Position numbers and translations under genes: made by a program. This document shows positions 1,080 through 26,757 of a stretch of DNA of 37,011 nucleotides, piece by piece. The DNA is taken from contig JAEUQE010000069.1 in the NCBI GenBank assembly GCA_016789785.1, positions 1-37,011 of the forward strand. Reading direction: 5' to 3'. Origin of the DNA: Bryobacterales bacterium (lineage in GTDB: Bacteria; Acidobacteriota; Terriglobia; Bryobacterales; Bryobacteraceae). Under the pieces are notes generated by a model. That model worked only from the letters and a program-made list of their open reading frames with translations. It was not told where the DNA came from and made no database searches. Position 1 is the stretch's first letter. Each line of letters starts with the position of its first letter.

Positions 1080-1080
1080 G

Positions 1081-2807: not shown

Positions 2808-2835
2808 ATTGCCATCGCAATCCGGAGGTCCGCTC

Positions 2836-6589: not shown

Positions 6590-6905
6590 CGCTGCCCCTC
6601 GAATCGACGACGCGTCGCGTCTTCGCCGGGGGCGCCTGCCGCGAGGATAACACTCTCCAGCACTCGCGATGAACGTTTCCTGGAAATGACTGCGTGCAGC
6701 TACTTCGCCCGAGGCGCCTGCCGCACGGGTAGTAATCTCCCGGCGACCGCGGTGAACGTTTCCTGGAATCACTGGCGTACAGTTACTTCGCCGGAGGCGC
6801 CTACCGCGCGGCTAGCACTCTCCAGACGACCGCGATGAACGATTCCTCGAATCACTGACGTGCAGTTACTTCGCCGGAGGCGGTTGCCGCGCGGTCAGCG
6901 CCTCA
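6590..6905. repeat. Degenerate 83-bp tandem repeat array
   Basis: Two full units of exactly 83 bp lie at 6696-6778 and 6779-6861. They share GAACG(T/A)TTCCT(G/C)GAATCACTG and CAG(C/T)TACTTCGCC. A diverged 82-bp unit (about 6614-6695) precedes them, with a trace of another from about 6590. A truncated unit (6862 to about 6905) follows and runs into the stop codon of the TamB-BamA gene. Since 83 is not a multiple of three and the frame shifts, the array is not a coding repeat. Each unit holds CGCC-GGA-GGCG, a potential small hairpin. The array fills most of the 395-nt gap 6508-6902. In the remainder (6508-6589) I see only the sulfatase ribosome-binding site. Confidence 0.85.
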
Positions 6906-12900: not shown

Positions 12901-13661
12901 GTGCGCAGATCGAGTTGCATGACGGTCGCGAGATTCAGTGACGGCTTGCTGATTGGCTCAACGTAGCCCTTGGCCTCGAGACTCGATTTGCCGCTGGACA
13001 GAGAGAGGTTCCGGATCGCGATCGACTCCCTGCCTTGCAGAATGTCGCCGCTTACGTTCAGTGGCAGGGTCTGCCCGCGGTAGATCGCGGAACCGGAACC
13101 AGTCCACTTCACGGTGTGCGCCAGCGATGCCTCGTCGCCGCTGACCTCGAATTGCAGATCGCGCAGCGAAGCGTCCACGCCGTGACGCCGGTCTTCCACG
13201 CGCAACGATGCGCCAGTCAGTCGTGCGAACCGAATCAGGAAGTCGCTTGCCGATTTCGGGGATCGCTCGCGCAGTTCGGGCAAATTCGTACGGCCATCGG
13301 AATCAATGACGAGGTGCAGCGCCGCGCCCCGCGCATCCAGCATGGTGAGATGCACATCGCCCCGAAGCAACGGCCAGAGCGCAACACCAGCCGAAGCCTG
13401 TTGCAGCTTGACAACCGGCGGCAGATCCGCCGCCGTGCGCGATCGCGTCTCCAATTCGCGCACAGCAGCGGACAGCGTAAGCAGGTTGTAGTCGAGGTGA
13501 AAGGTGGACTCGATGCCCTCGTCTCGCAGCCGCTCACGCAACTTGGCGGAGACCAGCCGCTTTGCCGGCGGTGTGTGCGCGAGTGTCAGCGCCACCGTCA
13601 GCAAAAGCAGCAGAGTGCCGGTCAGTCTCACTGCCCGGCGCAGTTTGGCGGTTCCGCGCAA
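6903..13661 (-). CDS. TamB-BamA fusion: AsmA/DUF490 translocation protein joined to an Omp85 barrel
   Basis: A single 2252-residue polypeptide. An N-terminal membrane anchor (about 13-30) is followed by AsmA/TamB sequence: long beta-strand-rich repeats to about residue 1300, then the canonical DUF490 C-terminal domain (GGKLLVAERNYLIERG at about 1310, then LAEEDIASLLVTGRT). From about 1520 there appear to be five POTRA-like repeats, opening VRNVRLTGTPVFAEKD and ending GEILVSGNSRVSEGLIR. From about 1910 to the end is an Omp85 barrel with the lid-loop motif VRGF and the outer-membrane terminus FSIGQAF. TamB spans the periplasm and normally works with a separate TamA/BamA-type barrel in exporting lipids and/or inserting outer-membrane proteins; here both are covalently linked. 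Start TTG 13661 has GAGG about 8 nt upstream, and an in-frame TAA six codons earlier rules out anything longer; an internal GTG is the alternative. It follows the TPR gene by 18 nt. Confidence 0.9.
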   Translation of the reverse strand: MRGTAKLRRAVRLTGTLLLLLTVALTLAHTPPAKRLVSAKLRERLRDEGIESTFHLDYNLLTLSAAVRELETRSRTAADLPPVVKLQQASAGVALWPLLRGDVHLTMLDARGAALHLVIDSDGRTNLPELRERSPKSASDFLIRFARLTGASLRVEDRRHGVDASLRDLQFEVSGDEASLAHTVKWTGSGSAIYRGQTLPLNVSGDILQGRESIAIRNLSLSSGKSSLEAKGYVEPISKPSLNLATVMQLDLRTLAPLVATAAIEGLVRAELKITGPANAVVAHGTLSASDAAAFGVSGGASSTVVFDATSSRLRAGDLRLQTSHGNASGSVDLALRDGMSSAALRFSQVDLGQASGLLKLPVTIASTGSASVNATWPALDYERASAKAAATLHAVQVSRREMALPVSGEISASIARGVLTVDLAALRALAIEGSGKVALTNFKQLSGDVALRVEKLAASLNEATAMKLLRTAPDVDGAVSARAALSGTIDQPSLSIIWDAAGLRSGAYTGGVAHAETLVTKQHIDIPVATLDWAGQAASLRGGIDLRPKQPLLQLDGEVRDGSIALLLRGLRQDVPASGIWSASFRASGAWNSPTVAMRGSARDLAAYGQTFGTLSFEGGWRGRDLTLDRLSLIQPARVAGEGTVEAKGSYGIDSQLFTLQARGSGLTLDSFTLPDKTAVRGVVTFETSGSGTIADPVLKSNLRISGLRINEYALGDATAAAEVASKQARIEAAMPRFQTRWTSTSAIAAPFATQFEASAQGLDVAALPWKLDPPLTGTLDAVIRGSGEPSNWKQAAASAEISRAEIGVRGQTIRNEGLLRAGLSNGRVVIEPSALRIADSKVTVEGELPLEANSTPGSLRFDGDLNVETLQNLAAMESEYRAAGRLKLQGSATGTFERLIPDLDLTLHDGRILSGQWKPLEIEQLRASIRDGAIRVRDASALWQGAKLSASAEVPFSLLPASIPLAPRNTGVAAFRASLRDLDLSTIPGMPASVSGKAALEATAEAAALELNAVKARIQATALQFQAERYRLEQQGDSVVSIANGIARVEHAQWKGPETQISLFGTAELRRGGALNVRADADMDIAVLSPFAANTRMQGLSRWRLVGFGTLEQPKLAGFVEMNDGRVSLASPNIAAEHVAIRGEFTGDRFEIRTLRGDVNGGRVQGGGHLRYAASKLSEVRLNLNASNVYLNYPTGLKTVSGGELMLRDRGNDLLLSGKLEIVEGSYTDPVTLEAGLLKYLQSRPTADTVEEEDEDSLLSRLRFDVGVRTRNPLVVDNNVAQAGLTANLRLAGTYRNPGLTGRIEIEEGGKLLVAERNYLIERGVITFTNERRIEPLLDVSARTKVHRHDINMLIQGGAGDRIATTLTSDPPLAEEDIASLLVTGRTLEEARGAGSNVAKEQALSLLAGSIGGTLSSQLRRATGISQFRVEPGLIAPESNPTARLTVGQDLARGLSVIYSMNLTDSRDQIYVAQWEAFRRFVTRGVRQSDASFRFEFNHDIRLGGPPAPTTNAERMQRIVRNVRLTGTPVFAEKDVRKKLNAKSGRRYDFFALRIGMEKLEKSYAKRGLLESSVRLTREMEGKQVDLSVHIEPGPAVSFVYEGWDPPGSVRDEVRSIWQRGVFDAQRTDDAVRAIRRKLVEEGYLQAVIRPSVTAPTAGEKQVLFDVAPGVRYGEVRLSFDGVSSSEAEELNRVAERQRLRSFVVVEPAKVASAVTAHYRERGYLDAAVTEPRVELDTEARSAKAVVVVREGSRATVGAIAFRGNRVFEEKALLAVLPVVTGSEFTPALRDTSVERLRGLYGSKGYNDTEVRAALHRGEEAGRLRVEFILEEGRPSKVGEILVSGNSRVSEGLIRSQLPLKPGDPLVLDLLSRARRDLYGTSAFSLVEIDREEMDGGAESKPVRLTVRVREMPPWDLRYGGYFDTERGPGGIADISNRNSLGSARVLGFRGRYDADLREGRLYFAQPLLRRFPVKTVATTFFRRELQPAFRTDRVGFSVQEEARFRKHYLISAGYRLERAETVDRMPDPILGALDPIVTRITPLTATMARDTRDDYLDATRGSLFSHGLEYAPEFLGSQLRYVKYFGQYFKFVPLTKPAEVPFQGGLLRPRLIYAGGVRFGMAAGLGGQTLIPSERFFAGGGTTVRGFAQNTIGPLDFAGDPRGGDAVFVVNNELRFPIYSIVEGVGFSDLGNVYRRASDFALSDLRKSAGFGLRIRTPYFLLRFDYGFKLDRRPGEGLGRLFFSIGQAF

Positions 13662-13679: not shown

Positions 13680-14297
13680 TTAGCGCACCGACCGGAGAAC
13701 GGACTGGACTTTGCTGGCTTCCGGCGCATCGGGCGCCAGTTTCAAAAATGCCTCGAAATGTTCTACCATCCGGTCCGGGCGCTTCATCCCGTTATACGCC
13801 ATCCCGGCATAGTAATGTGCGTAGGCATGCTTCGAATTGCGCGAAATCGCCGTCTCGAAATGTTTGGCGGAGTTCGCGAACTCCTTCCGCGCTAGCATCA
13901 AAAGGCCCCGCGCGTAAGGTAGTTCTTTGTTCCCCTCATCAAGCGATGCGGCTTCGTTCAACACGCGATCCGCCTGGGTGTAGTCCTTCTGCGCGACCAT
14001 CGCCTGCGCCATGCCAACCTTCACGTCTGCGACATTCGCATCGGTCTTCTTCTCGGCTTGTTGAAAGGCTTCCATCGCCTCGGCGGGCTTCTGCAATTTC
14101 AGAAGCGTCAGACCCAGATAGTACGGCGAGCGCCAATCCTCCGGTTCTGCCTCCATGGCCGCGCGCAGTGACTTTTCAGCCTCGGCATAGTCGCGCGACT
14201 CATACTGCTCAATCCCCTTGGAAGACGCAGCTTCCTGCGCCGAGAGAGAAGTGGCGAAAAGAAAAAGTGTCAGCATCCCAACGGTGTGCTTGTTCAT
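13680..14297 (-). CDS. Secreted tetratricopeptide-repeat protein
   Basis: 205 residues with a Sec-type signal peptide (MNKHTVGMLTLFLFATSLSA, then cleavage near AQEA), then about five TPR-like helical pairs, for example DWRSPYYLGLTLLKLQKPAE and HAYAHYYAGMAYNGMKRPDR. TPR arrays bind proteins. ATG 14297 is supported by GGGAGG about 8 nt upstream; the longer frame to 14432 has no signal peptide. Its stop lies 18 nt before the TTG start of the TamB-BamA gene, so the two are likely one operon. A periplasmic role in outer-membrane biogenesis, comparable to BamD-type TPR lipoproteins, is an inference. I see no lipobox Cys. Confidence 0.85.
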   Translation of the reverse strand: MNKHTVGMLTLFLFATSLSAQEAASSKGIEQYESRDYAEAEKSLRAAMEAEPEDWRSPYYLGLTLLKLQKPAEAMEAFQQAEKKTDANVADVKVGMAQAMVAQKDYTQADRVLNEAASLDEGNKELPYARGLLMLARKEFANSAKHFETAISRNSKHAYAHYYAGMAYNGMKRPDRMVEHFEAFLKLAPDAPEASKVQSVLRSVR

Positions 14298-14459
14298 CGT
14301 TTTACCCTCCCGCGACCCCAGAGCCATGTTCATGTATTGTGACGCACCTCTCGTCGTAGACGGTACAGAAACACGCACAGCTCGCAGAAGAGGAAAAGAA
14401 AAGGCGAAATTAGGGCCAGACTGGTCATCCATGGTCCCCCTGCGGGCATTGCACCAGAT

Positions 14460-16571
14460 TCAGTCCGTCTCTGACGCCGGCCCATCCCTCCCAGCCCCCG
14501 CAAGCAACCGTTCGGTGTCATCGCACGGAACCGGCTTGCCAAAGTAATACCCTTGCCCGAACTGGCAGCACAGCGAACGCAGTTCGCTAAGCTGGTCACT
14601 ACGCTCCACGCCCTCGGCCACGACATCAATGCCGAGGCTTCTGGCAAGTGTCAGCACCGTGCGCACCACCTCCAGATCCGTCCTGCTATCAAGCATGCGC
14701 ATGATAAACGAACGGTCGATCTTCAGCGTGTCGATCGGCATGCGGCAGAGATAAGCGAGACTCGAGTATCCGGTCCCAAAATCGTCGAGTTCGATCCCCA
14801 CGCCAAGCTCTTTCAGTTTGCGGGTGGTGGCAATGGCGCCCTCCGGATCATCCATCACCACGCTCTCCGTAATCTCCAGGTGGAACTGATCAGCCGGAAA
14901 CCCGGTCTGGCCCAGAATTTGCGCAATCCGCCCTACAATGTCCGGCTGGCGGAACTGCCGGATCGAAAGGTTCACACTAATCGAGAGCGGAGGCGCCTTC
15001 GGATAGCGGCGTTGCCAGTCGGCCATATCGTGGCAGGCTTGGCGCATCACCCACTCTCCGATCGCCACGATTTGCCCCGTCTCTTCCGCCACTGGAATGA
15101 ACTCCGCCGGGCACACCATCCCGAGCGTCGGATGGTGCCATCGCACCAGCGCCTCGAAACCCACCACTGCGCCGGTCTCCAGATTCACTTTCGGCTGATA
15201 GAACACCGCCAGTTCGTTGCGCTCCACCGCCTTCCGCAACCCGCTCTCGATCTCCAGGCGGATCGCTGCCGCCTCGCGCATACTGTCGTCGAACATCACG
15301 AATCCGGAACCGCCTCGAGCCTTGGCCGCGTACATCGCGGTATCCGCATCGCGCAGCATATCCTCCACCGATTCGTAGTTCGGGTTCCAGGCGGCGATCC
15401 CGATGCTGACGCTGCAAAACACTTCCTTGCCGTTCAGGTCAAACGGTTCGTCAAGCGCACGCAAAACCCGGCTGGCCGCCTCTTCCGCCTCTCGCACATC
15501 AGACAACTGATCGAGCAGAATGGCGAACTCATCTCCTCCGAACCGCGCTACCGTCAATGCGTCCCAATCGCGCAGGGCATGTCCTTCGCCCACGGCCCGC
15601 AACAACCGGCTTCCCACGGCGATCAACAACCGGTCGCCCACCATGTGTCCCATTGAGTCATTCACCAGCTTGAAGCGGTCCACATCCAGGAACAGGACCG
15701 CGAAATGCGTGGACGACTTCCTTGCTTGATCCAGCGCGTGGCCCGCACGATCGAGAAACAGGAGCCGGTTTGCCAGGCCGGTCAGCGAATCGTGCACCTT
15801 CTGCTCGGTGATGTCAGTCTGCGACCCGGTCATGCGGATCACCCGCCCGTTGGGATCGCGGAGCGTGTACCCGCGTCCTCGCATCCAGTGGAAGGTACCA
15901 TCCTTGTGTTGCAGGCGGTACTCGCACACAAACGGGGTGTCCTTGGAAGAATCCGCGGTCCAGTGCGCGCGCAAACTCCCCAGCAGATTCCGCAAGTCGT
16001 CGGGATGGACACGGCCAAACCACTCCTGAGTCGTGTCCGAAATGGCGTCTGCATGCACTCCGGCCATCTCGCGCCAGCGTGGCGAATAGTAGACCCGGTT
16101 GTTTGTCAGATCCCAATCCCAGATCCCGTCGCCAGTTCCGCGCGACGCCAGTTCGTGCCTCTGCTCATTCTCGCGGACACGCCTGTCCTGATCGCGGCGG
16201 CTGAGCTGCGACTTGATGCGCGCCAGCGCCACACGAAAATCGACAGGTTTGGGAATGTAGTCGTTCGCACCCAGATCGAGCGCGCCCGCAATGATCGAAC
16301 TATCGCTAACGGCCGTGGCCATGATCACCGGCAACTCGCTTGGCCCGTGCACCTTCCGCAGCAGCTTCAGCAAGTCGATTCCACTCATGCCCGGCATCAT
16401 CGTATCCAGCAGCACAAGGTCGATGCCGCCTTCTTCAATCACGCCCATCGCCTGCCACGCATCCTCGGCCTCGGCGACCTCGTAGCCATTCCGCGTTAAC
16501 CGCTCCTTGAGCATGTCGCGATTCAGAAACTCGTCATCCACAACCAGCAGTTTGTGTTTCCGTTCAGGCAT
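14460..16571 (-). CDS. Response regulator with PAS, GGDEF and EAL domains
   Basis: 703-residue cytoplasmic output protein. REC domain (1-125) with phospho-acceptor Asp56 (LLDTMMPG) and Lys108. PAS/PAC (about 140-257). GGDEF domain with intact GGDEF at 345-349. EAL domain (EALVRW at 473-478; EITES; DDFGTGYSSL; EGVE) with the metal and catalytic motifs present. It could therefore both make and degrade c-di-GMP. The RxxD (RDWD, 334-337) sits seven rather than the usual five residues before GGDEF, so product inhibition may be altered. The start overlaps the REC-kinase stop by 8 nt (ATGCCTGA), indicating translational coupling. It is the last gene of the PhnD/kinase operon and its likely output. 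Which cyclase/phosphodiesterase activity dominates cannot be told. Confidence 0.93.
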   Translation of the reverse strand: MPERKHKLLVVDDEFLNRDMLKERLTRNGYEVAEAEDAWQAMGVIEEGGIDLVLLDTMMPGMSGIDLLKLLRKVHGPSELPVIMATAVSDSSIIAGALDLGANDYIPKPVDFRVALARIKSQLSRRDQDRRVRENEQRHELASRGTGDGIWDWDLTNNRVYYSPRWREMAGVHADAISDTTQEWFGRVHPDDLRNLLGSLRAHWTADSSKDTPFVCEYRLQHKDGTFHWMRGRGYTLRDPNGRVIRMTGSQTDITEQKVHDSLTGLANRLLFLDRAGHALDQARKSSTHFAVLFLDVDRFKLVNDSMGHMVGDRLLIAVGSRLLRAVGEGHALRDWDALTVARFGGDEFAILLDQLSDVREAEEAASRVLRALDEPFDLNGKEVFCSVSIGIAAWNPNYESVEDMLRDADTAMYAAKARGGSGFVMFDDSMREAAAIRLEIESGLRKAVERNELAVFYQPKVNLETGAVVGFEALVRWHHPTLGMVCPAEFIPVAEETGQIVAIGEWVMRQACHDMADWQRRYPKAPPLSISVNLSIRQFRQPDIVGRIAQILGQTGFPADQFHLEITESVVMDDPEGAIATTRKLKELGVGIELDDFGTGYSSLAYLCRMPIDTLKIDRSFIMRMLDSRTDLEVVRTVLTLARSLGIDVVAEGVERSDQLSELRSLCCQFGQGYYFGKPVPCDDTERLLAGAGRDGPASETD

Positions 16572-17961
16572 TGCTGTGCTCCATCAGGCCCCGCGGAGCT
16601 GCGAACACGGCAGGCGGAACCGTCGCATTCCCGTCCGAACCACCACTGGCATGGTCCACCGGGACAGAAGGATCGCTCGAACCAGAAGTCACCGCGGATG
16701 GAATCCGGATCGTGAATGTCGATCCCTTGCCCAACTCGCTCTGAGCCGTCAGGGATCCGCCCATCAATTCACAGAGCCGCCGGCTGATCGCCAGGCCAAG
16801 CCCCGAGCCGCCAAACCTGCGCGTGGCCGCGGAGTCCACCTGCGTAAACGGCTCGAACAGCTTCCCCAGATTCTCCGCGCTGATGCCGATCCCCGTGTCG
16901 CGTACGCTCCATTCCATCCACATTCCATTTCGGACCACTGCGAGTTCCACGCTACCTGCCGAGGTGAACTTGCAGGCATTGCTGAGCAGATTGAGCAGGC
17001 ATTGCTGGAAACGCGTCTGATCCACTTCCATCCACAGCGGCTCTTCGCTGATCTTCAACACCAGACGGTTGCCGCGCTTCTGCGCGAGCGGTTCGGCAAT
17101 CGCCAGCGCGTCCCCCGCTAGTTCACGGGCACTCACAGATTCACTGCGAATCGGCATCTTCCCTGCTTCGATCCGCGCCATATCCAGGACATCGTTGATC
17201 AGATTCAGAAGATGACGCGACGCCATCTGCACTTTGTCAAGCACAGGCAGCATCTGCCCCCCACCAGTTTGCCGCGCGTCTTCGGCAAGCATCTCTCCGT
17301 AGCCGATGATCGCGTTCAGCGGCGTGCGCAATTCGTGGCTCATCGTCGCCAGGAACTCGCGCTTCAGGCGATTGGCCGATTCGGCCGCTTCCAGCGCAGC
17401 CAACAGTTCACGCTCTGTGCTCTGGCGCTGGCGAACCTCGTTCTCCACTTCCTGAATCTGCGCCTTGCAAACGTCTATGGCGGCTCGCTTCGACGTCAAA
17501 GCGTGGGCCAGTTGCACGACCTCGATATTGTCAAAAGGCTTCTTGAGAATCACGAAATTGTGCGACTCCCCAAGCCGGTCCACAATCTCGCGCCACGAGT
17601 AATCGGTATAGGCCGTGCAGATGACGATCTGCAACGACGGGTCACAGCGCCACAGACGCGTGGTCGTCTCAATTCCGTCCCAGCCTGGAGGCATCCTCAC
17701 ATCCACGAACGCCATTTCGTAGGGCCGCCCTTCCTGCCATGCCGCCTCCACCAACTTGAGCCCGTCCTGACCCTGATAGGCGGAGTCCACCTGGAACTTC
17801 GTACTGTCGTTGCGCGTTGACCCAAACAGCAGCGCCTCGACTCCATCCAGGTCATCTCCGTGCCGCTCCGGCGGCGTCAGGATCTTTCGCAGATCGTCGT
17901 GGATCGCCTCGTTATCATCGATCACCAAAATCCTGCGCCGGGCCGGTTGTTCGTATGTCAT
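16564..17961 (-). CDS. REC-histidine kinase (N-terminal receiver, no membrane segment)
   Basis: 465-residue soluble hybrid kinase. REC domain at 10-157 with phospho-acceptor Asp87 (AFVDVRMPPGWDG) and the KKP lysine at 140-141. It is the long REC variant with an insertion around residues 30-58. A coiled-coil linker (about 160-200) precedes a standard HisKA with MSHELRTPLNAIIGYGEM (His209). HATPase motifs are N box NLLSNACKF, G1 VRDTGIGI and G2 GGSGLGLAIS. The tail from about 425 is Ser/Pro/Ala-rich and disordered-looking. It lacks its own sensor domain, so it probably takes phosphate from the membrane kinase and relays to the REC-GGDEF-EAL protein. The start overlaps the upstream stop (ATGA at 17958-17961). 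Confidence 0.93.
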   Translation of the reverse strand: MTYEQPARRRILVIDDNEAIHDDLRKILTPPERHGDDLDGVEALLFGSTRNDSTKFQVDSAYQGQDGLKLVEAAWQEGRPYEMAFVDVRMPPGWDGIETTTRLWRCDPSLQIVICTAYTDYSWREIVDRLGESHNFVILKKPFDNIEVVQLAHALTSKRAAIDVCKAQIQEVENEVRQRQSTERELLAALEAAESANRLKREFLATMSHELRTPLNAIIGYGEMLAEDARQTGGGQMLPVLDKVQMASRHLLNLINDVLDMARIEAGKMPIRSESVSARELAGDALAIAEPLAQKRGNRLVLKISEEPLWMEVDQTRFQQCLLNLLSNACKFTSAGSVELAVVRNGMWMEWSVRDTGIGISAENLGKLFEPFTQVDSAATRRFGGSGLGLAISRRLCELMGGSLTAQSELGKGSTFTIRIPSAVTSGSSDPSVPVDHASGGSDGNATVPPAVFAAPRGLMEHSNA

Positions 17962-20159
17962 GAACGGGCACTCCTTTCCTTCGCCGATTCGCGCCGGATT
18001 GGAAGTTCCAGCGTAAACACCGCACCTTGCCCCGGACCATCCGTCTGCACGCTGAGGCTTCCTCCAAGGTCCTTTGCCGCAAGCGCCCCCGAATGCAGTC
18101 CGAAACCGTGACCTTCCTTCTTCGTGGTGAAACCATGCTGGAAGACACGTTGCAGGTCCTCCGGCCTCAGGCCGATTCCGTTGTCCGCCACCGAAATGCG
18201 GATCCTGTCCTCATCCGCCCGCGCAACCTCCAGACGGACCAGTTTCTGCGCCTTTCCCGACGCCTTGGTCGCATCCTTGGCATTGCGAATCAGATTCAGC
18301 ACAATTTGCAGCACCTTGTGTTTGTCAGTCAGGATTTCCGGCAGATCGCCAGCGCGTACCTCAATGCGGACGCCGTGGCGTTCCAGACCCTCCCTGGAAA
18401 GGGCCAGCGCATCGTCCATCAACCTCCGAACCGAGACCTTCTCAATAAAGCCAGCGGTTGTGGCATAGCCTTGCTGGGCAGCCACGATCTCCTTGATGTG
18501 GCCGACATGCCGGCTCAAGTTCCCCAACTCGGACACCATGCCTTCCCTCTCCCGCAGAAGGTAGTCCGAGAGTTTCGCCAGATAGGGCAAGACATGAGTG
18601 CCCTTGGCGTCCGACTTGAGAAACGTGCCGAGATCATTCTCGTGCTCCCGCAGCATCTCCACCACCGAGGCAAGCTTGTCGATGCGCGATTGCTGCACTC
18701 GCTCGAGCACCAGCGTCGCCGCCACGTTGACGCTGTTCAACACGTTGCCGACATTATGCAGCACACCTGTGGCCACCTCCGCCATGCCCGCGTGCCGCGA
18801 CATGTCCACCAGCCGCTGCTGCGCGGCCGCCAGTTCGGCGTGGGCGCGATCTCGCTCGATCACCTGCTCCTGCAGTTCCTGCGTTCTCATCGCCACCCGC
18901 TGCTCGAGGGTGTTGTTCGCCTCCACCAGCGCGTTCTGTGCGCGGTGCCGGATGATGGTCGCGCCCAACATGTTGGCCACGGCGCGCAGACTCTCCTTCT
19001 CGGCCTCACTCCAGTCCCGCTCCTGCGCACAGTCGTCAAATCCGAGAAAGCCCCACCAGTCACTGTCCACCCACACGGGAATCAAGATCAGAGACTTGAT
19101 CGACGGATCGAGAACCTGGCGCGCGCCCTCCTCCAGGGTCGCCGCCCTGGCTTCGACAATGCGGTCGTCGGATAACATCATGCCCCAAACGTCCAGCCCC
19201 CCGCCCACCCATGGAAAGCGCTGCCAGCGGTCCTTCTTCGGAGCGATGCCATCCGCGGTCCACTCCTCGCGAAGACTGCACGCCACCACTCCTTCGCAGG
19301 TCTCGTTCTCGAACAGATAGGCCCGGCTCGATCCGGTCGCCCGGCCCATCCGCGCCAGGATGACCTTCATCGCCACGTTTGTGCCGGCGGCACGCAGCAG
19401 TTCCTGCGCCGCAAATCCTACACTCTCCAGAATCATGTTGCGCGCCAGTACGGTAGCCGTCATCGAATTGAAGGCGGCCGCCAGCGTTCCCACTTCATCC
19501 CGCGTCCGAACATCGGCGCGCGCCCGCAAGTCTCCGGCCGCCACTTTGTTCACTGCCGATTGCAACTGATGGATCGGAGTAACCAGGCGCTTTGCGTAGA
19601 CCAGGGAGATCAACAGGCTAAGGACGCTGCAGAACAGACCGAGCATCAACGTCCGTCCCCAACTGCGCGCCACGCTCTGATCGTAGGCATCGAGCGAGAG
19701 CCCCACATGCACCCACCCCCATTCGATCCCGCTATAGTCAAACGGCGTCGAGTAGTGAAACACACGCGTGCCAAACAGCGGCTCCACGCGGATGGAACTC
19801 AACGGCCGCCGGACCGCAGGCCGCCAGGACTCACCAAGGGTCTCGGTCCGCCAGTTGGAGCGGTCCGTAACCACCGAGAAACCGTCGTTCTTGGTGACCA
19901 CCACAAAGCGAATCGCCTCATCACCGGCCAGAACCTGCATGGCCTGATCCACGACCACCGAATAATCCTCCGACACGGCAGCTCCGGCAGCGACCGCCTT
20001 GATCGACGCCGCAATGCCCTGGGCTTTTGACTCCAGATTGGTACGGAACTCGCTCTCCTGCTGAGGAATGATGACAACCACGAAGACCACCAGCGTGACC
20101 AGCGTGACCGTCCATCCAAGCAGCGCGACCCGCAGAGTAATGCCGCGAAACAGGCTCAT
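17958..20159 (-). CDS. Membrane sensor histidine kinase (periplasmic sensor, HAMP, GAF, HNVGNVLNS-type)
   Basis: 733 residues. TM1 about 10-32, periplasmic Cache-like sensor about 33-168, TM2 about 169-189, HAMP about 190-240 (TPIHQLQSAVNKVAAGDL), GAF-like about 245-405, coiled coil about 408-450, then an unusual dimerisation/phospho-acceptor helix with His468 in GVLHNVGNVLNS, and HATPase (NLIRNAKDAT, VADNGIGL, TTKKEGHGFGL). The ATG at 20159 overlaps the stop of the preceding PhnD-like gene (ATGA) with AAGGA about 8 nt upstream. The frame stays open to 20843, but that stretch lies inside the PhnD-like gene and is low-complexity shadow. Placed directly after four binding-protein genes and before the two REC proteins, it is the likely transducer that reads the binding proteins in the periplasm. 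Confidence 0.92.
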   Translation of the reverse strand: MSLFRGITLRVALLGWTVTLVTLVVFVVVIIPQQESEFRTNLESKAQGIAASIKAVAAGAAVSEDYSVVVDQAMQVLAGDEAIRFVVVTKNDGFSVVTDRSNWRTETLGESWRPAVRRPLSSIRVEPLFGTRVFHYSTPFDYSGIEWGWVHVGLSLDAYDQSVARSWGRTLMLGLFCSVLSLLISLVYAKRLVTPIHQLQSAVNKVAAGDLRARADVRTRDEVGTLAAAFNSMTATVLARNMILESVGFAAQELLRAAGTNVAMKVILARMGRATGSSRAYLFENETCEGVVACSLREEWTADGIAPKKDRWQRFPWVGGGLDVWGMMLSDDRIVEARAATLEEGARQVLDPSIKSLILIPVWVDSDWWGFLGFDDCAQERDWSEAEKESLRAVANMLGATIIRHRAQNALVEANNTLEQRVAMRTQELQEQVIERDRAHAELAAAQQRLVDMSRHAGMAEVATGVLHNVGNVLNSVNVAATLVLERVQQSRIDKLASVVEMLREHENDLGTFLKSDAKGTHVLPYLAKLSDYLLREREGMVSELGNLSRHVGHIKEIVAAQQGYATTAGFIEKVSVRRLMDDALALSREGLERHGVRIEVRAGDLPEILTDKHKVLQIVLNLIRNAKDATKASGKAQKLVRLEVARADEDRIRISVADNGIGLRPEDLQRVFQHGFTTKKEGHGFGLHSGALAAKDLGGSLSVQTDGPGQGAVFTLELPIRRESAKERSARS

Positions 20160-21391
20160 ACCGTCCATCCTTCCCAAACCGCGCCCGAACCTGGTCCACG
20201 GCGGACTCCCGAACCCCAATCGTTCTTCACAGAAACTGCCCAGCAGGCCATCAAAGAGCCCTTGGGACCGGCGGCGGCGGACCAGGCGGCATTCTGGGAG
20301 CCGCCAGGAAACCGCCAAGCTTGAACGGCACCCGGCGGAGTCCGATCGGAAGGAGGCCAGCGATGTGCGGCCGGAACGCCGGACCGCGACGCTGGCTGCC
20401 CGGCTGCCAGACCCTGCACCGACGGAAGACTCCCGTGCAGCTTCCGGTACTCTTGCCACAGTCTGCGGGACGCCGCCATATGCTCCGGCGCCAACCGGAC
20501 CACACGACCCACCTGGAACATCGTCAGAACCTGTTTGCCTCGCGGGTTGAGGTGCAGGGAGATCGTTGCATCCCAAAGCTCCCGCATGTAGGGGTGCGGC
20601 ACTACCGGGCGCGCGATCACAGTCTCGATGAAACGCTCCGACCTGGCGATCACCCGCAGCCGCGTCAGTTGCGGATTCATCTCCTTCAGCAACTCGAAAC
20701 TCAGCTCGTCCACGACGCAGGCATCCACCTTTCCGAAGAACACAGGCAGCACACAGTCCTGAGGCCGGGCTGCCGGCTTTCTCGCGCCGGCGTGGGACGC
20801 CGCACGCCCCAGCCCTGCTTTCGCCATCGTCACATCCAGCCACGCCAGCCCAGCGTCCAGCTTGGTCCGCGCATAGTGGCGCAGCGCCTTCTCCTGCAGA
20901 TCTGCAATCGAATGGATCCCGGACTCCGCTCGCGTCAGCACCAAATAGGAGTAGCCGGGATTGGGATCCGATCCCCGCTGCTCCGTCAAATCGGCAACCA
21001 ACAGTCCGTGGGGCTCCAATCGGACATAGTCGACAAAGTCGAGCATCAGGACATCCACCGCCCCCTGCCGGAGACGCTTCTCGATTTCCAGGTGGTCTGC
21101 CGGTACATCGACATGCGAATCCAACTCGAGGCCGCGTTCCTGGGCGATGATGTCAAACCAGGGTTTGAACGCCGCGATCACGTCGTGACGGTCTATCCCT
21201 CGAAAAAATGACGGACTCAGAAGCACGTGCACCCGGGCACGGCGCATACGGCCTCCGGCCGCCGCCTGCGGCGAAGTTTGAGCCACCGCCTGCCACAGCA
21301 TAGCCAGAGCAAGAGTTACACCAGCTCCGAAAACGCGGATGACGCGCACACGCCGCGTCACACTTCTCGTTTTGAACTCGATCCTCCTCAT
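20156..21391 (-). CDS. PhnD-like periplasmic binding protein, paralog 4, with long tail
   Basis: 411-residue member of the PhnD-type (phosphate/phosphite/phosphonate) binding-protein family. It has an N-terminal hydrophobic signal (VFGAGVTLALAMLWQAVAQ), then HVLLSPSFFRGIDRHDV, VDVLMLDFVDYVRLE and the hallmark block CVLPVFFGKVDACVVDE. Shared segments HPYMRELWDATISLHLNP and VLTMFQVGRVVRL align with the three neighbours upstream. About 80 residues at the C-terminus (past GSLPSVQG) are Gly/Pro/Arg/Ala-rich and absent from the paralogs, whose tails are about 30 residues or shorter. The start has GAGAGGA 7 nt upstream and overlaps the previous stop (ATGA); its own stop overlaps the kinase start. 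With no permease or ATPase nearby it probably acts as a ligand sensor, as in the PhnD-like input domain of TtrS-type kinases. Confidence 0.88.
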   Translation of the reverse strand: MRRIEFKTRSVTRRVRVIRVFGAGVTLALAMLWQAVAQTSPQAAAGGRMRRARVHVLLSPSFFRGIDRHDVIAAFKPWFDIIAQERGLELDSHVDVPADHLEIEKRLRQGAVDVLMLDFVDYVRLEPHGLLVADLTEQRGSDPNPGYSYLVLTRAESGIHSIADLQEKALRHYARTKLDAGLAWLDVTMAKAGLGRAASHAGARKPAARPQDCVLPVFFGKVDACVVDELSFELLKEMNPQLTRLRVIARSERFIETVIARPVVPHPYMRELWDATISLHLNPRGKQVLTMFQVGRVVRLAPEHMAASRRLWQEYRKLHGSLPSVQGLAAGQPASRSGVPAAHRWPPSDRTPPGAVQAWRFPGGSQNAAWSAAAGPKGSLMACWAVSVKNDWGSGVRRGPGSGAVWEGWTV

Positions 21392-22479
21392 TGCGGATTC
21401 CTCTCTGCAACGCCGGCCGCCCGGACACGGCGGTTCTCCGTTTCGGCTGAATCTCCCGGATCTCCAGTCAGTTGGTGATACTCGGCCCAGAGCGATCGAA
21501 CTGCCCTCAGATCGCCGGGTGTGAACCTTACCAGGCGTCCCGTGTTGAACACCATCAACAGTTGGCGTCCCCTCACGCTCTCATGGAGCGCCAGAATGGC
21601 CTCCATCAACTCCCCGTGATAAGGATGCTGGTTCGCCGGTGTCGCAATGAGCGCTTCCACCAGCGGCGGGGAACGCAGGACCACCCGCAGTTTGCCAAGC
21701 TGAGGGTTCATCTCCCGCATGATCTCGAAATTGATCTCATCCACCACGCAGGCATCCAGGCGATTGAAAAAGAGTGGCAGCACGCAGTCTTGAGGTTTGG
21801 TGGCAAAACGCGAGTCCCCGAAGTACGTGGCCGCGCGGCCCAGCCTCTCTTTGGCGAGGGTCACGTCCAGCCAAGCCAGGCTTGTCTTTAATTGGCTCCG
21901 GGAAAAGTGGCTGATGCGGGCGCCCTTCAGATCGGAGAGCTTCTCCGCTGGAGAAGATGGAGGGACCAACACCAGGTAGGAGTAACTTGCCCGCTCACCC
22001 TTGCTGCGGCTCCCTAACAGTCTCGGCACCAGGAGACCGGTGCCCTCGATCTGGAGGAACTCCACGGAATCGAGGATCAGAACGTCGACAGAGCGCGCCT
22101 CCAACCGTTGCCGCAGTTCCGGAGTGTTTGATATGACATCGACCCTCGTGTCGAGCGCGAACCCGCGCTCTTTCCCCACCAGTTCCAACCAGGCCTTTAC
22201 CGCAGCCACAGCGTCATTCCGGTTCACCGAAGTGAACATCCGGCTGCTGATCACCGCGTTCAAGCGGGTGGGCCTCAAGTGGCCCAAAGCAGTATCCGCC
22301 GGAACGCCGGAGGCTGCCAACGCCCTGCCGCGCATCGCGCCCTGCCCTTGAGCCGCTGACACCCGAGCCCCCGCAAAGAACCCCGTGCCGAGCATCAGCC
22401 CGGCGACAATCAGGTGTCGCCAAACGTCCAGGCGGGATAACCGCGCACCCAGGCCTGCATCGGATCGCAGATCAGACAT
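21388..22479 (-). CDS. PhnD-like periplasmic binding protein, paralog 3
   Basis: 363-residue PhnD-type binding protein. It has a basic N-region and hydrophobic stretch (HLIVAGLMLGTGFFAGA), then LNAVISSRMFTSVNRNDAV, VDVLILDSVEFLQIEGTG, PQDCVLPLFFNRLDACVVDE and VFNTGRLVRFTPGDL. It aligns end to end with paralogs 2 and 4, including the paired cysteines flanking LPLFF. The ATG at 22479 overlaps the previous stop (TGATG); a TTG at 22482 is better spaced from GAGAGGA and is a real alternative. Its stop overlaps the next ATG. The ligand is unknown. The fold class binds small oxyanions or phosphonates, but divergence here means other ligands are possible. Confidence 0.88.
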   Translation of the reverse strand: MSDLRSDAGLGARLSRLDVWRHLIVAGLMLGTGFFAGARVSAAQGQGAMRGRALAASGVPADTALGHLRPTRLNAVISSRMFTSVNRNDAVAAVKAWLELVGKERGFALDTRVDVISNTPELRQRLEARSVDVLILDSVEFLQIEGTGLLVPRLLGSRSKGERASYSYLVLVPPSSPAEKLSDLKGARISHFSRSQLKTSLAWLDVTLAKERLGRAATYFGDSRFATKPQDCVLPLFFNRLDACVVDEINFEIMREMNPQLGKLRVVLRSPPLVEALIATPANQHPYHGELMEAILALHESVRGRQLLMVFNTGRLVRFTPGDLRAVRSLWAEYHQLTGDPGDSAETENRRVRAAGVAERNPQ

Positions 22480-23432
22480 CAACGGGGTGTCCTCTCTTCC
22501 GGTTCAAGTCCCCTCGCGCTCGTCCCCGGAACAGAACCGCGCCCCGCCTCCGGCCTCAGCTTCCGGTAGCGATTCCAGATCACCCGCACCGTATCGAACG
22601 TCGCGTCGGTTACCCGCACCAGCGGCCCGGTCCGGAACAAAGTGACCAGATGCGCCCCCGTTGGGTCCTTGTGCAAATCGAGAATCGCTTCGATCAGTTC
22701 CTCCCGGTAGGGGTGCGGCACACCGGGCATCGCCACGACGCCCTCCACCAGCGCGGGCGATCGCGCCACGATCTTCAGCTTGGCAAGCTGGGGATTCAGT
22801 TCCTGCAACAATTCCAGGTTGCCGCTGTCCACTACACAGGCATCCAGCCGGCCGAAGAACACTGGCAACACACAAGCCGAGGATTGCGGCGCATCCACAA
22901 CCGAGCTGAAAAACTGAGACGCCGGCCCCAGGCGCTGGTCGGCAAGCAATGTTTCGATCCATGCCAGCCCGAGCCTCGCCTTCGTGCGCGAGCTTGTGGC
23001 AACCCGCTTCTCGCGCAGATCCCCAAACGTCCCCGCAGTTCCTTCCCGAACCAGTAGCACGTATTCAAATCCCAGTTTGAATCTGAGGTTTGCGCCCGCC
23101 GCAATGGGCACCACCAAACCCGTCTCCGCCAATCGCAGATAGTCGGGGGTATCGAGGACCAACAGATCGACCGATTTCTGCCCAAGTCCCGAGATCGCAA
23201 CATCCACGTCCTGGAACACTGTCACCGTCGAGTGGAACTGGAACCCCTTGCGCCGTCCGACCTGATTCACCCACACCCGCATCGCCGCCGTCGCATCATT
23301 CCGGTTCACCGCCGCAAACAGCGAATCACTCGTCATCACGTTGAGCCGCGCGGGCCGCCGTGCAACATCAGCGCCTTCCGCCGGATGCCCAAGTCCGCAG
23401 ATCAGGGTCAGCGCAAGCAGACGCGGCCTCAT
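22479..23432 (-). CDS. PhnD-like periplasmic binding protein, paralog 2
   Basis: 317-residue PhnD-type binding protein with signal peptide RLLALTLICGLGHPAEGA. Core blocks: LNVMTSDSLFAAVNRNDAT, VDLLVLDTPDYLRLAETG, SACVLPVFFGRLDACVVDS, HPYREELIEAILDLHKDP and LFRTGPLVRVT. The start ATG 23432 has GGAGGG 6 nt upstream and overlaps the paralog 1 stop (ATGA). The frame is open to 23885, but that extension lies wholly inside paralog 1 and has no family similarity. The short signal-peptide start resembles the stub preserved at 24388-24486, evidence for tandem duplication of this unit. Confidence 0.89.
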   Translation of the reverse strand: MRPRLLALTLICGLGHPAEGADVARRPARLNVMTSDSLFAAVNRNDATAAMRVWVNQVGRRKGFQFHSTVTVFQDVDVAISGLGQKSVDLLVLDTPDYLRLAETGLVVPIAAGANLRFKLGFEYVLLVREGTAGTFGDLREKRVATSSRTKARLGLAWIETLLADQRLGPASQFFSSVVDAPQSSACVLPVFFGRLDACVVDSGNLELLQELNPQLAKLKIVARSPALVEGVVAMPGVPHPYREELIEAILDLHKDPTGAHLVTLFRTGPLVRVTDATFDTVRVIWNRYRKLRPEAGRGSVPGTSARGLEPEERTPR

Positions 23433-24391
23433 GCCCGGCCCTCCCCCCGCAATGTCCCACTGAATTTGCGGCCCGTCCGCTCGTATTGCTCCAGAATCGA
23501 CAGCGTCGGATCCAGACAACTCGGATGCCGCACCGTAAGAGCATCGCACTGAAACATCGTCAGGACCTGCCGCCCCGCCGTGCTCGACCGCACATCCGCT
23601 AACACCTTCGCCACAAGCTGCCGCTTGGCCGGGTCCCAGCCCCTTCGATAGGCATAGAGACTCGGAACCACCTCTGGCGACACCGCAATCGGCCGCATCC
23701 GCTCGCCGACTTGGGGGTTCAACTCGCACATGGTCGCAAACGCTTGCTGGGTCGCGACGCACGCATCCATCTGGCCGAAGAAGACCGGAAGCATCACCCG
23801 CGAAGGCTTGAGTTCGTTGGTGACGGTTGCGAAAAACTTCTCTGTTCCCCCCGGTTCCTCCCCAGCCACGAGGTTCGACAACCACGCCGGCGCGACGTGG
23901 GTGGCCATGGATTTCAGCATCACCAGTTTTTTTCCCCGCAGTTGCGAGACCCTGGTGACAGCTCCGTCGCTCCTCACCAGCAACACGTATTCGAGCTTCG
24001 TTCTCTGCGAGGGAACCGTAATTTCGGTCCGGTCCAGCGAACCCACAATCTGGCGGTACTCCGAGACAGTCACTGCCACCGTGTCCACGCTCCCCGCCCG
24101 CAGCCTCGCGAACAAACGCGCTGAGGGCTCGAAAACCTGTGGCGCGACGGCGATATCGAGCTTCAGATCCTGGGCAATCCTGCGAATCCAGACCGTCATC
24201 GCCGCCCGCGCATCGGCGACATTGAAGTCGCCCACCAGACTCTCCGACAGCGCTAGACTCACCTCCCGCTGCTGGGCGCTGGCCTGTGCCGCCTCCCCGA
24301 TGGTCAACATACCCGCGGCGTGGCGCAGAAACTCCCTCCTCGCCAGCAGGAGGCTGCCTACAGCCGCGCGACGCGATCTTCCATTTGTCAT
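23429..24391 (-). CDS. PhnD-like periplasmic binding protein, paralog 1 (divergent)
   Basis: 320-residue PhnD-type binding protein, the most divergent of the four. The N-terminus has a twin-arginine-like motif RREFLRHAAGM before a signal ending SAQQ. Core blocks: LALSESLVGDFNVADARAAM, VDTVAVTVSEYRQIVGSL, VMLPVFFGQMDACVATQ and VLTMFQCDALTVRHPSCLD. The first of the paired cysteines kept in paralogs 2-4 (CVLP) is replaced by Val-Met (VMLP), which may change ligand or redox behaviour. ATG 24391 has GGGAG 8 nt upstream and overlaps the stop of an upstream 32-codon stub (ATGA). It is the first intact member of the array. Confidence 0.87.
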   Translation of the reverse strand: MTNGRSRRAAVGSLLLARREFLRHAAGMLTIGEAAQASAQQREVSLALSESLVGDFNVADARAAMTVWIRRIAQDLKLDIAVAPQVFEPSARLFARLRAGSVDTVAVTVSEYRQIVGSLDRTEITVPSQRTKLEYVLLVRSDGAVTRVSQLRGKKLVMLKSMATHVAPAWLSNLVAGEEPGGTEKFFATVTNELKPSRVMLPVFFGQMDACVATQQAFATMCELNPQVGERMRPIAVSPEVVPSLYAYRRGWDPAKRQLVAKVLADVRSSTAGRQVLTMFQCDALTVRHPSCLDPTLSILEQYERTGRKFSGTLRGEGRA

Positions 24392-24486
24392 TTCCGGATC
24401 TCCCGCCTCCGCCGGCCCGGCCATCCCACTTCCATCGAGTGCGCGGGCCCGCAAATCAGCATCGGTACGAATGGGAGCTTCCTCAT
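24388..24486 (-). pseudogene. Signal-peptide stub of a lost PhnD-like gene
   Basis: A 32-codon frame starting at ATG 24486 with AAGAGGA 6 nt upstream and ending at a TGA that overlaps the paralog 1 start (ATGA). Its product begins MRKLPFVPMLICGPAHSMEV, which matches the paralog 2 signal peptide MRPRLLALTLICGLGHPAEG at several positions including LICG..H. I read it as the start and translational-coupling end of a PhnD gene whose body was deleted. It could still be translated as a short leader. Confidence 0.6.
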
Positions 24487-24654
24487 ACCGAATCCTCTTT
24501 CCGCGGAATCCAACTGAGCCTTGCGCCGCGATCGCTCGTACTGATCCAGAATCGCCAGCGTCGCGTCCAGACAACACGGATGCGCCACCAGCGATTCCCG
24601 TCTGGAAAGCAATGGGCTATTCTGCGCTGCCCTGCGCGATCCTTCCGCTTCCAT
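24487..24654 (-). pseudogene. C-terminal fragment of another PhnD-like gene
   Basis: In the same frame as the stub just downstream, translation gives SLVAHPCCLDATLAILDQYE then RSRRKAQLDSAERG. This matches the end of paralog 1 (TVRHPSCLDPTLSILEQYER). At DNA level 24533-24582 and 23478-23527 agree at 44 of 50 bases by my count. The N-terminal three quarters of the gene are missing and the outer-membrane factor gene ends at 24699. With the stub it forms a fossil of a C-terminus/N-terminus junction between two former array members. The upstream boundary of the fragment is uncertain. Confidence 0.72.
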
Positions 24655-24698
24655 TCCAACTCTCCGTCCCGGCGCACGATCCGATCGGAATCCGCAGC

Positions 24699-26303
24699 CT
24701 AGGGCTGGCCCGCCAACCGTTGCAACATCTCCTTACCCACCACCACCGCGATCTGGGACTCGATCGCAAGGTGGTCATACCGCGTCTTCAGGTGCTGCGC
24801 CGTCATGAGCGATTCGAACAACTGGGCACGAATCACTTTCTCTGTCTCGATCAGCTCGCTTTGGTAGGCACGCGAGGTCAGTTCGCGGTTCTCCTGCGCC
24901 GAGGTCATCGCCCGGCCCGACGCCTGATACGCCTTCGCCGCGGCCTGCAGGCTCAAAAACATGTCCCGAAGCTGCAGCCCGATCCCCTCCCTTAACAGCA
25001 CCTTCTCCTCTTTCAACTTCGCGATCCGAGCCACCGCCTCAGCAACCTTGTTCTGCGTCAACAAGCCATTGAAAACGGGGATCTCCGCCCCAAGGCCCAG
25101 CACCCACCCGGCACGGTTCTGCGGTGTCGCGGCTCCTTGCGAATAGCTGTTCCACCAGCGGTGAAGCTGCCCGGTGAACGCAACCTTTGGATAATGTCCG
25201 CTGCGGGCCGTCTTTGCCGCACCCTCCAGGGCGCGTAACCCCGCTTCCACGCGCGCCCAATCCGGATTGAATTCGTAGGCACTTCCCACCATCTCATTCA
25301 AGTCCCCCGCAAACGGCCGGTAGGGAATCTCCTCGGCGGATGGGCGCACGGTCGCGTTCCACGGCAAGCCCATCGTGTAAGCCAGGGCCGCCTCCGCCGC
25401 CGCCTCGTTCCTGGCCAGCATCGCCACCATCGACCGGATTGTCTCCACCATCACCTGATTGTCGAGATAGTCCGTCTTGTTGACCTTTTCCGAACCGTTC
25501 TTGTACATCGACTCGGTGAGTTCCAGCGTCACTTCCATCCGAGCCAGCGTGTCCGTGCCGACCTGATGCAGTTGCCGCGCCAGCAGGGCGCCATAGTATA
25601 GCCGGGTGACGCTGTCGCTGATCTCAAGGTCGGTCCGCCGCTGCTCGGCCTTGGCCAGATCCACCGCACCCAGCGCCTGCTCGCGATAGCCCTTGCGCAT
25701 CCCCCCGTCAAAGAGGAGCCACGTCATGTTCGCCGCGGTGGCCGTCGTCCACGGGTTCAGGAGTTTAATGTTTTGCTCCGGGATCGGAAACATTTGCAGT
25801 GAAGTCGTAATGCTCTGGCCGGGAAAGCTCACGGGCATCTGCACAGCCGCTGGAGGAAAGCCCGGCCCAAACGCGTTGGCCGGGATCGTCACCGCCGCGG
25901 TGCCTCCCGGTACGTTCACCGTCTGCGGCGGGATGTACATGGTGCTCGCCGGAAAGATGAAATTCAAAGGCTCATCGGTCCTGGAAACACCCACCTTCGC
26001 CGACACCTGCGGCCAGTAGCCCGCCAGCGCCTGACGGTGCTGGGCCTCAGCCATCGCGACGGCAAATCGCGAGGCTGGCCGGCGATGATTGTTCTCCATC
26101 GCCATCCGCAGACACTGCTCCAACGAGAGCACCTGCGGCGCCGGGGATGGCGGCTTCACCTGTCCGGCCTGCTGCTCGAATCCCCCGGACAGACCCTTTG
26201 CTTCTCCGGCGGCACAGGCACCCGCCACCGCCAGCGTCAATACGCATCCAATCGGAAACCTGCTCGCCTTCAGTCCCATACTCGATCTCTTGAACCTGCC
26301 CAT
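24699..26303 (-). CDS. TolC-family outer-membrane efflux protein
   Basis: 534 residues with an N-terminal signal (PIGCVLTLAVAGACAAGEA) and the two-repeat OEP pattern: SLEQCLRMAMENN near 60, long amphipathic helices (MAEAQHRQALAGYWPQVSAK and ALGAVDLAKAEQRRTDLEIS), and AEIPVFNGLLTQNKVAEAVA in the second half. An insertion of about 90 residues rich in Pro/Ala/Thr (about 115-200) extends the first beta region. ATG 26303 directly follows GGAGGA with too little spacing; ATG 26279 is an alternative. TolC proteins form the outer-membrane exit duct of efflux pumps or type I secretion, yet no membrane-fusion protein or pump is next to it. It heads the PhnD/kinase gene run on the same strand, so it may be co-regulated. 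Confidence 0.9.
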   Translation of the reverse strand: MGRFKRSSMGLKASRFPIGCVLTLAVAGACAAGEAKGLSGGFEQQAGQVKPPSPAPQVLSLEQCLRMAMENNHRRPASRFAVAMAEAQHRQALAGYWPQVSAKVGVSRTDEPLNFIFPASTMYIPPQTVNVPGGTAAVTIPANAFGPGFPPAAVQMPVSFPGQSITTSLQMFPIPEQNIKLLNPWTTATAANMTWLLFDGGMRKGYREQALGAVDLAKAEQRRTDLEISDSVTRLYYGALLARQLHQVGTDTLARMEVTLELTESMYKNGSEKVNKTDYLDNQVMVETIRSMVAMLARNEAAAEAALAYTMGLPWNATVRPSAEEIPYRPFAGDLNEMVGSAYEFNPDWARVEAGLRALEGAAKTARSGHYPKVAFTGQLHRWWNSYSQGAATPQNRAGWVLGLGAEIPVFNGLLTQNKVAEAVARIAKLKEEKVLLREGIGLQLRDMFLSLQAAAKAYQASGRAMTSAQENRELTSRAYQSELIETEKVIRAQLFESLMTAQHLKTRYDHLAIESQIAVVVGKEMLQRLAGQP

Positions 26304-26757
26304 TCCTCCCGCTGCCCCGAACGCAATACGGGTGACTTCCTAAGTGCTTATCGGCACGAAACCGCCTAAAGTAGGAGAAAAGGCAGAGCCGTGCTTTCAA
26401 GCACAGCCCACACTTCCCGCAGCAAAGCCTGCAATCTCCGGGCGGCGCCAACGCTCCGCCGGACTACCGCCATGTTGCCGGACTGTTGATTGAGGGGCGC
26501 TCGTGCGCGGGTAGCTCAGACAGGCGACGATGCCCGCCGCAAGACAGACCTCGCGATCCTTCGTGGTGACCGAGGCGGTCAGCGCCAATTTGGAGGCCTC
26601 GGTTCGTGATCGCGCTACAGACGAACATTCCACCGGTTACCGGCGGAGTGTACCCCTGTCTTTTGGATTGGAAGATTGATTCTAAGCGAAGTCATCGTGC
26701 CGGCATCAACAGTCTACCCCGTGGGCGCGCGCTCAACTTACAGTAATCTCAGCGCCC
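26304..26757. other. 454-nt intergenic region, structured but without a convincing gene
   Basis: The gap lies between the thioredoxin-like gene and the outer-membrane factor gene, both on the minus strand, so it should hold the promoter and leader of the sensory operon. I see a hairpin GTGCT-TTCA-AGCAC at 26391-26404 and a GC-rich inverted repeat around 26438-26462. A 78-codon minus-strand frame (26397-26633) has no recognisable domain and no clear ribosome-binding site, so I do not call it. GCAAAGCC at about 26423 on the plus strand recalls a GEMM (c-di-GMP) riboswitch core, but the rest of the consensus is missing and the strand is wrong. Confidence 0.5.

Follow-up and report, generated by a model that had tools for sequence, protein, structure and literature searches.

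Gene content and order of the operon

We analyzed a contig of 37,011 nucleotides from a Bryobacterales bacterium (GenBank assembly GCA_016789785.1, contig JAEUQE010000069.1), referred to here at its full length as the window. The subject of the analysis is a minus-strand operon of this contig that encodes a TolC-family channel, four PhnD-type periplasmic binding proteins, a membrane histidine kinase, a soluble kinase, and a GGDEF-EAL response regulator. The Pfam matches and our choice of start codons give the following transcription order, in which one short open reading frame (ORF) is a putative gene relic and the PhnD proteins are assigned to two classes, A and B.

24699..26303, minus strand: TolC-family outer membrane channel (OEP), which heads the operon (PF02321, E 2.2e-36, two stretches)
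24388..24654, minus strand: ORF of 88 amino acids, putative relic of a fifth PhnD, class A (shuffle-tested likeness to PhnD1)
23429..24391, minus strand: PhnD1, class A, with a twin-arginine-like signal peptide (PF12974, E 2.5e-15; AlphaFold2 model; fold and sequence matches)
22479..23432, minus strand: PhnD2, class B (PF12974, E 1.5e-18; tree)
21388..22479, minus strand: PhnD3, class B (PF12974, E 4.8e-17; tree)
20156..21391, minus strand: PhnD4, class B, with a C-terminal tail of ∼90 amino acids (PF12974, E 1.3e-20)
17958..20159, minus strand: membrane histidine kinase with a transmembrane segment, a single predicted Cache domain, a second transmembrane segment, HAMP, GAF, DHp (LHNVGN), and HATPase (Pfam; chosen start 20159)
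16564..17961, minus strand: soluble REC-HisKA-HATPase kinase, or REC-kinase (Pfam)
14460..16571, minus strand: REC-PAS-GGDEF-EAL response regulator (Pfam; both signature motifs, GGDEF and EAL, present in the translation)

The first-pass annotation of this span had described four PhnD proteins, the membrane kinase, the REC-kinase, and the REC-PAS-GGDEF-EAL protein in a row, and Pfam agrees; the TolC gene and the relic, although they lie within the same span, had gone unmentioned. Its overlaps of 1 to 8 nucleotides among these seven genes are found at all six junctions from PhnD1 onward (4, 1, 4, 4, 4, and 8 nucleotides, the second being 4 if a TTG start is used). Also as it had stated, the Pfam scan revealed no permease or transport ATPase of the PhnC/PhnE type within the run from the PhnD genes to the GGDEF-EAL gene; the ABC permease and ATPase of the window are located at 186-1911 on the opposite (plus) strand, >12 kb from the operon. 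The four PhnD proteins share 27–44% pairwise identity. In the translation, the signature motifs of GGDEF and EAL look intact, as do the receiver aspartates.

Conservation of gene order in relatives

The closest relative used, genome G001, has a kinase 69% identical to that of the window, and its order was sampled as 257 genomes. A TolC search of this order (E <= 1e-70, best five candidates scored per genome) identified the channel in 17 of the 257 genomes, with one match each, and in all 17 a PhnD gene directly follows TolC (the TolC gene of G113 is divided between two contigs, and the fragment on the PhnD contig was the one counted). TolC and the kinase lie on the same contig in 15 genomes, leaving out G061 (contig end) and G223 (cluster on two contigs), and in 15 of 15 nothing except PhnD genes was called between them; gene calls in relatives were heuristic (ORFs of at least 100 amino acids, with starts picked by rule), and the kinase of G002 is cut by the contig end. 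Conserved linkage to the kinase, whose absence the earlier annotation had named as refuting its reading, is thereby borne out. The number of PhnD copies in these 15 genomes is six in one genome, four in four genomes, three in four, two in one, and one in five, with the second copy of the two-PhnD genome shortened to 162 amino acids. No adaptor or inner-membrane pump of the kind that serves TolC/outer membrane factor channels is encoded between TolC and the kinase; of the genes ahead of TolC in the relatives, few were identified.

The kinase search recovered 20 of the 257 genomes (best four candidates per genome), some of them having kinases without adjoining PhnD genes. Among other kinase matches, one with 56% identity is assigned to Paludibaculum fermentans. 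Beyond the order, a phylum sample (396 genomes, E <= 1e-60) yielded G572 and G596 in addition to G001, and 297 genomes sampled from the phylum to which G003 belongs yielded G003 and G939; the order TolC–PhnD–kinase is identical in G572, G596, G939, and G003. Junction distances were <=25 nucleotides in 69 of the 77 measured, counting those of the window. The arrangement is real and conserved beyond chance. It is found in few genomes of the order and also in these four further ones, so the module is patchy but old.

Duplication, loss, and divergence of the PhnD copies

The gap between TolC and PhnD1 in the window is 307 nucleotides (the junction survey lists it as 121 nucleotides, its rule having chosen an earlier PhnD1 start), and the corresponding distance is -29 to +39 nucleotides in 20 of 21 junctions of relatives and 126 nucleotides in the remaining one (G003). 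The 88-residue ORF in this gap retains a start, the beginning of a signal peptide, and a C-terminal tail, and its end overlaps PhnD1 by ATGA. At its N terminus it is similar to the PhnD1 signal peptide; the part that follows is 70% identical to the PhnD1 tail over 23 residues. The C-terminal part exceeded its shuffled controls both as DNA (score 107 vs a maximum of 50.5 in 2000 shuffles) and as protein (86 vs a maximum of 40; 0 of 5000 shuffles). For the N-terminal part the protein score was 47 vs a maximum of 41 (0 of 5000 shuffles), and the DNA alone was not significant, as 26 of 2000 shuffles reached its score. The plain reading is that this ORF represents a fifth class A PhnD, the middle of which would have been lost. 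A side observation concerns the ∼90-residue tail of PhnD4 (20156-20480, minus strand), which is rich in Pro, Gly, and Ala. We rejected the idea that it is another hidden relic because the tail region has a homolog in P0164, its clearest match (42% identity over 132 columns).

A phylogenetic tree was built from 54 of 57 PhnD rows (three of <250 amino acids were dropped). Class A, comprising PhnD1 and its kin, forms a node with support of 100/100; class B, to which PhnD2–4 belong, has a 16-row core supported at 100/98 and deeper nodes at 95/80, 84/67, and 95/91. The long branches of G003, G939_2, and G043 are of unsure placement according to the tool. Sister tandem PhnD pairs occur in G224, G088, G113, and G008 and, judging from the tree, are separate duplications, and copies 2, 3, and 4 of G001 and G002 pair by position (98/93, 96/80, and 99/93). 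Class A genes stand ahead of class B genes in 11 of 11 mixed operons, counting the window, a tally in which the B label of G088 and G061 depends on the 84/67 node and G223 was read across two contigs. Four class A genes and no class B gene are present in G001; G158, G119, and G244 have one class A gene each, and a single class B gene is found in G019, G043, and, on its long and unsure branch, G003. Since operons with only A and only B occur, either class can apparently function alone.

For the G203/G207 pair, the sole one with a full set of nonsynonymous to synonymous substitution ratios (Ka/Ks), the values were 0.13–0.20 for the four PhnD copies and 0.06–0.09 for TolC, the kinase, and the REC-kinase; with Ks of ∼1.0–1.4, these ratios are rough. 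Two PhnD copies of the G217/G223 pair gave ∼0.31 and 0.34. On these values the PhnD copies are kept by purifying selection yet, in the G203/G207 pair, change at ∼2–3 times the rate of TolC and the kinase. A larger PhnD alignment (A1) held 52 of 120 listed matches (443 found) and 20 of 48 from a second list, with each row taking its class label from the search in which it appeared. Twin-arginine-like starts were seen in 24 of 53 class A rows vs 1 of 23 class B rows; such a signal would mean that class A proteins are exported in the folded state.

PhnD fold, ligand pocket, and search for a permease

PhnD1, the sole receptor modeled, is predicted by AlphaFold2 to be a bilobal binding protein (mean predicted local distance difference test score 89.6). 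Its Foldseek matches are PtxB, ArrX, AioX, MCA1014, HtxB, PhnD, and XAC2383, a mixture of both kinds, and therefore the fold alone cannot part sensing from transport proteins. Six solved structures were matched by sequence at E <= 0.01, all of them ArrX/AioX (sensing proteins) or MCA1014, and no transport PhnD passed this threshold. Against the NCBIfam models for transport PhnD and PhnD-like proteins, the four PhnD proteins of the window scored 13–24 bits vs cut-offs of 112 and 261.

The AioX pocket residues, taken from PMC5908839, were mapped with a HMMER alignment that is rough (∼16% identity) and from which the numbering was assigned. The set Tyr88, Cys106, Tyr131, Ser161, Ser163, His192, and Asp210 is largely replaced, Tyr88 lying outside the aligned stretch. 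PhnD1/2/3/4 carry T/D/D/D at the place of Cys106, L/F/Y/Y at Tyr131, T/A/L/L at Ser161, V/L/T/A at Ser163, P/S/P/P at His192, and T/D/D/D at Asp210, and all four share an invariant Tyr two residues past the Tyr131 place. The Asp210 place separates the classes in the larger alignment, being Asp in 22 of 23 class B rows and Thr or Ser in 53 of 53 class A rows; the Cys106 place is Asn in 45 of 53 class A rows and Asp in 13 of 23 class B rows. Because most AioX pocket residues are changed, arsenic oxyanions and phosphonates appear less likely as ligands, and one with a positive charge may suit class B better. An NPQ motif, present in 47 of 49 PhnD proteins of the order and window, is a candidate contact or structural site.

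Co-occurrence of a cognate permease had been named in advance as evidence against a sensing role. No PF00528 permease was found near the cluster in any of 12 genomes: of 100 matches in total, none lies on the cluster contig in 11 genomes, some of these contigs being short (15 kb in G002), and in G203, with a chromosome-sized contig, the nearest is ∼230 kb from the cluster. No PhnCDE-type permease plus ATPase was present in the cluster, with the ATPase family searched for in the window only.

The kinase and its outputs

The periplasmic part of the kinase matched the Pfam sCache_3_2 model at 27.5 bits, just below the cut-off of 28.4, and the secondary structure of the kinase model, which has a predicted template modeling score of 0.38, fits a periplasmic Cache domain between the transmembrane helices. 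In alignment A2 (50 of 120 listed matches, including that of the window itself; 2165 found), mean identity of the 49 chosen relatives to the window was 68% for the periplasmic part, 62% for DHp, 58% for the second transmembrane segment with HAMP, 57% for the ATPase part, and 43% for GAF. In 17 of 20 operon genomes the Cache domain has a higher identity to its window counterpart than the cytoplasmic part does (80 vs 66% in G001, 66 vs 25% in G244), and in G003, G572, and G596 a slightly lower one, a comparison in which the cytoplasmic alignments vary in length. A sensor domain that is better conserved than the catalytic domains fits a putative docking site shared by many partners.

Downstream of the kinase, 6 of the 15 genomes (G001, G119, G019, G046, G088, and G008) encode a GGDEF protein. 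It is accompanied by REC and EAL in G001, G119, and G019; the output of G001 was assigned by its 64% match to the protein of the window, and a REC-kinase precedes it as in the window. In G046 the GGDEF protein has an EAL domain (REC was possibly lost to start choice), in G088 a cut EAL, and in G008 no EAL in the same frame. REC-PAS-kinase proteins stand in place of GGDEF in G203, G207, G217, and G158, three of them with a second REC, and G224 encodes a REC-PAS-kinase protein followed by a REC-HD_5 protein. The kinase of G043 bears REC domains of its own, and no output protein was recognized in G113. The loci of G002 and G244 reach the contig end, and another contig of G002 carries pieces of a kinase, a REC-kinase, and a GGDEF-EAL protein. 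A REC-GGDEF-EAL protein is encoded in G003, which lies outside the order. The front end is constant and the back end is swapped. Cyclic di-GMP (c-di-GMP) output is common, not universal, so the claim that the system sets c-di-GMP does not extend to the several relatives with hybrid kinases instead. Directly upstream of TolC, G001 (L119:1724-3802) and G002 (L127:4832-6973) encode a REC-PAS-kinase-REC hybrid, and on that account two output branches may exist there.

Proposed mechanism and alternatives

We consider it probable that an expandable set of receptors docks on one Cache kinase. Several PhnD-fold proteins of classes A and B would reside in the periplasm and presumably bind a different ligand each; once loaded, any of them could dock on the one Cache domain that the single membrane kinase offers. 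The signal would then pass from this kinase to the REC-kinase and to the REC-PAS-GGDEF-EAL protein, by which c-di-GMP would be raised or lowered. TolC would most likely admit ligands across the outer membrane or belong to the same assembly. The receptor set would expand and contract by tandem duplication and loss around a fixed TolC/Cache hub. The observations behind this reading are gene content and order, conservation, the history of the paralogs, selection in one genome pair, and the lack of a permease nearby; docking, ligand binding, the phosphotransfer order, and the role of TolC are what we infer. The earlier interpretation, in which the four proteins were interchangeable or cooperating receptors for one kinase, is partly supported; operons with only class A and only class B both keep a recognizable Cache domain, which fits exchangeability. 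The high conservation of the Cache domain could also reflect one constant small ligand.

It is unlikely that a single PhnD signals while the other copies, as antagonists, buffers, or decoys that capture ligand, compete with it for one ligand or docking site. One receptor does suffice, in that operons with a lone PhnD, whether class A or class B, have a similar kinase front end, but the four G203/G207 copies are under comparable purifying selection, and the pocket-equivalent residues differ among the copies of the window and do not suggest shared ligands. We regard as quite improbable a trans-envelope complex of TolC, PhnD proteins, and the Cache kinase, in which the PhnD proteins would be adaptors and the state of the TolC channel, or its traffic, would be the signal. 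The invariable presence of TolC with the cluster as its first gene, conserved about as well as the Cache domain, speaks for such a complex, as does the missing adaptor or pump gene between TolC and the kinase. The PhnD1 model, however, is that of an ordinary binding protein, and we know of no PhnD-fold adaptor for TolC. Very improbable is the proposal that the PhnD proteins serve transport through a shared ABC permease encoded elsewhere, with the kinase only reporting uptake. Their fold is the same as that of transport PhnD and PtxB, and all 12 genomes searched have permeases somewhere; none of these is near the cluster, however, the NCBIfam scores fall far below the transport cut-offs, and the pocket residues of the oxyanion-binding AioX are mostly replaced.

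Comparison with known systems

To our knowledge, binding-protein-dependent kinases have one receptor per kinase. XAC2383-XAC2382 of Xanthomonas citri also pairs a PhnD-fold receptor with a c-di-GMP enzyme, XAC2383 being among the top Foldseek matches; it reportedly has a single receptor, with the cyclase within the membrane protein. In both this system and NspS-MbaA of Vibrio cholerae, GGDEF is on the membrane partner, whereas in the window the partner is a histidine kinase and GGDEF-EAL is on a separate REC protein. NspS is said to come from a binding-protein family other than PhnD. MbaA is itself a GGDEF-EAL protein with one receptor and no kinase relay. As described in PMC8967002, the binding protein docks and switches the c-di-GMP enzyme. 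AioX/ArxX/ArrX with AioS (XSR arsenic regulation) likewise have a stand-alone PhnD-fold protein encoded beside a sensor kinase, with no permease here. According to PMC5908839, on AioX/ArrX-type regulation, in which the word TolC is absent, the output of AioX–AioS differs from that of the window in being a response regulator that acts upstream of an RpoN promoter; AioX–AioS has one binding protein per kinase, whereas the window has four. TtrS-type kinases also use PhnD-like periplasmic sensing (PMC5408782), but in TtrS the PhnD-like domain is inside the kinase, whereas the receptors of the window are separate, multiple genes. MCA1014 (7t1m, titled bacterial sterol transporter) was a top match. 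According to PMC10942540, BstB of the Bst sterol proteins is a PF12974 protein outside a phosphonate ABC system; the Bst proteins are tied to sterol synthesis genes, whereas the PhnD proteins of the window are tied to a kinase. The TolC of the window shares its OEP domains (PF02321) with TolC/outer membrane factor efflux channels. A 2022 review states that within the binding-protein clan only SBP_bac_3 has been studied in c-di-GMP networks (PMC8846402).

By analogy, the operon would work like AioX–AioS and NspS–MbaA; it departs from them in receptor number, the associated TolC, and the kinase relay to c-di-GMP. Among the open-license matches listed, we recognized no publication that describes a TolC–PhnD–kinase operon or a kinase served by several PhnD proteins, which does not show absence in print. 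We suggest tentatively that the locus might be an undescribed envelope sensing module, with a TolC dedicated to signaling, expandable and fast-changing PhnD receptors, one strongly conserved Cache hub, and a swappable output. If true, it would be a multi-receptor array that gains inputs by tandem duplication without new kinases. Receptor numbers of 1–6 on a conserved hub, together with the separate duplications, make receptor sharing and input gain directly testable, and a constant TolC in a pump-free signaling operon raises the question of what part an efflux-type channel plays in sensing.

Other features of the window

A sigma-54 promoter pattern had one match in the window vs a chance mean of 2.77, and none at the operon start. 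The general promoter scan (4 vs a mean of 2.7) and terminator scan (6 vs 9.9) were not used as evidence. A phmmer comparison of TolC with PDB sequences gave no match at E 0.1. PADLOC, applied to three proteins, gave one weak match for the REC-kinase (21.8 bits), which we took as a general kinase match. A terminator-like hairpin is located at 26386–26409, before tolC.

On the plus strand, the ABC permease and ATPase belong to a stretch (186-4599) that continues with an unassigned protein and an AAA ATPase; the proteins of the window scanned in this region included no binding protein. After the GGDEF-EAL gene, and in the same orientation, comes a TPR protein (13680-14432, minus strand), for which the loci of the relatives gave no called match. 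Further along the minus strand, a 2252-residue ORF (6903-13661) combines a TamB-type N-terminal half (PF04357) with POTRA repeats and an Omp85 barrel (PF07244, PF01103) and is, as predicted from these domains, a TamB-TamA-like fusion in a single polypeptide.

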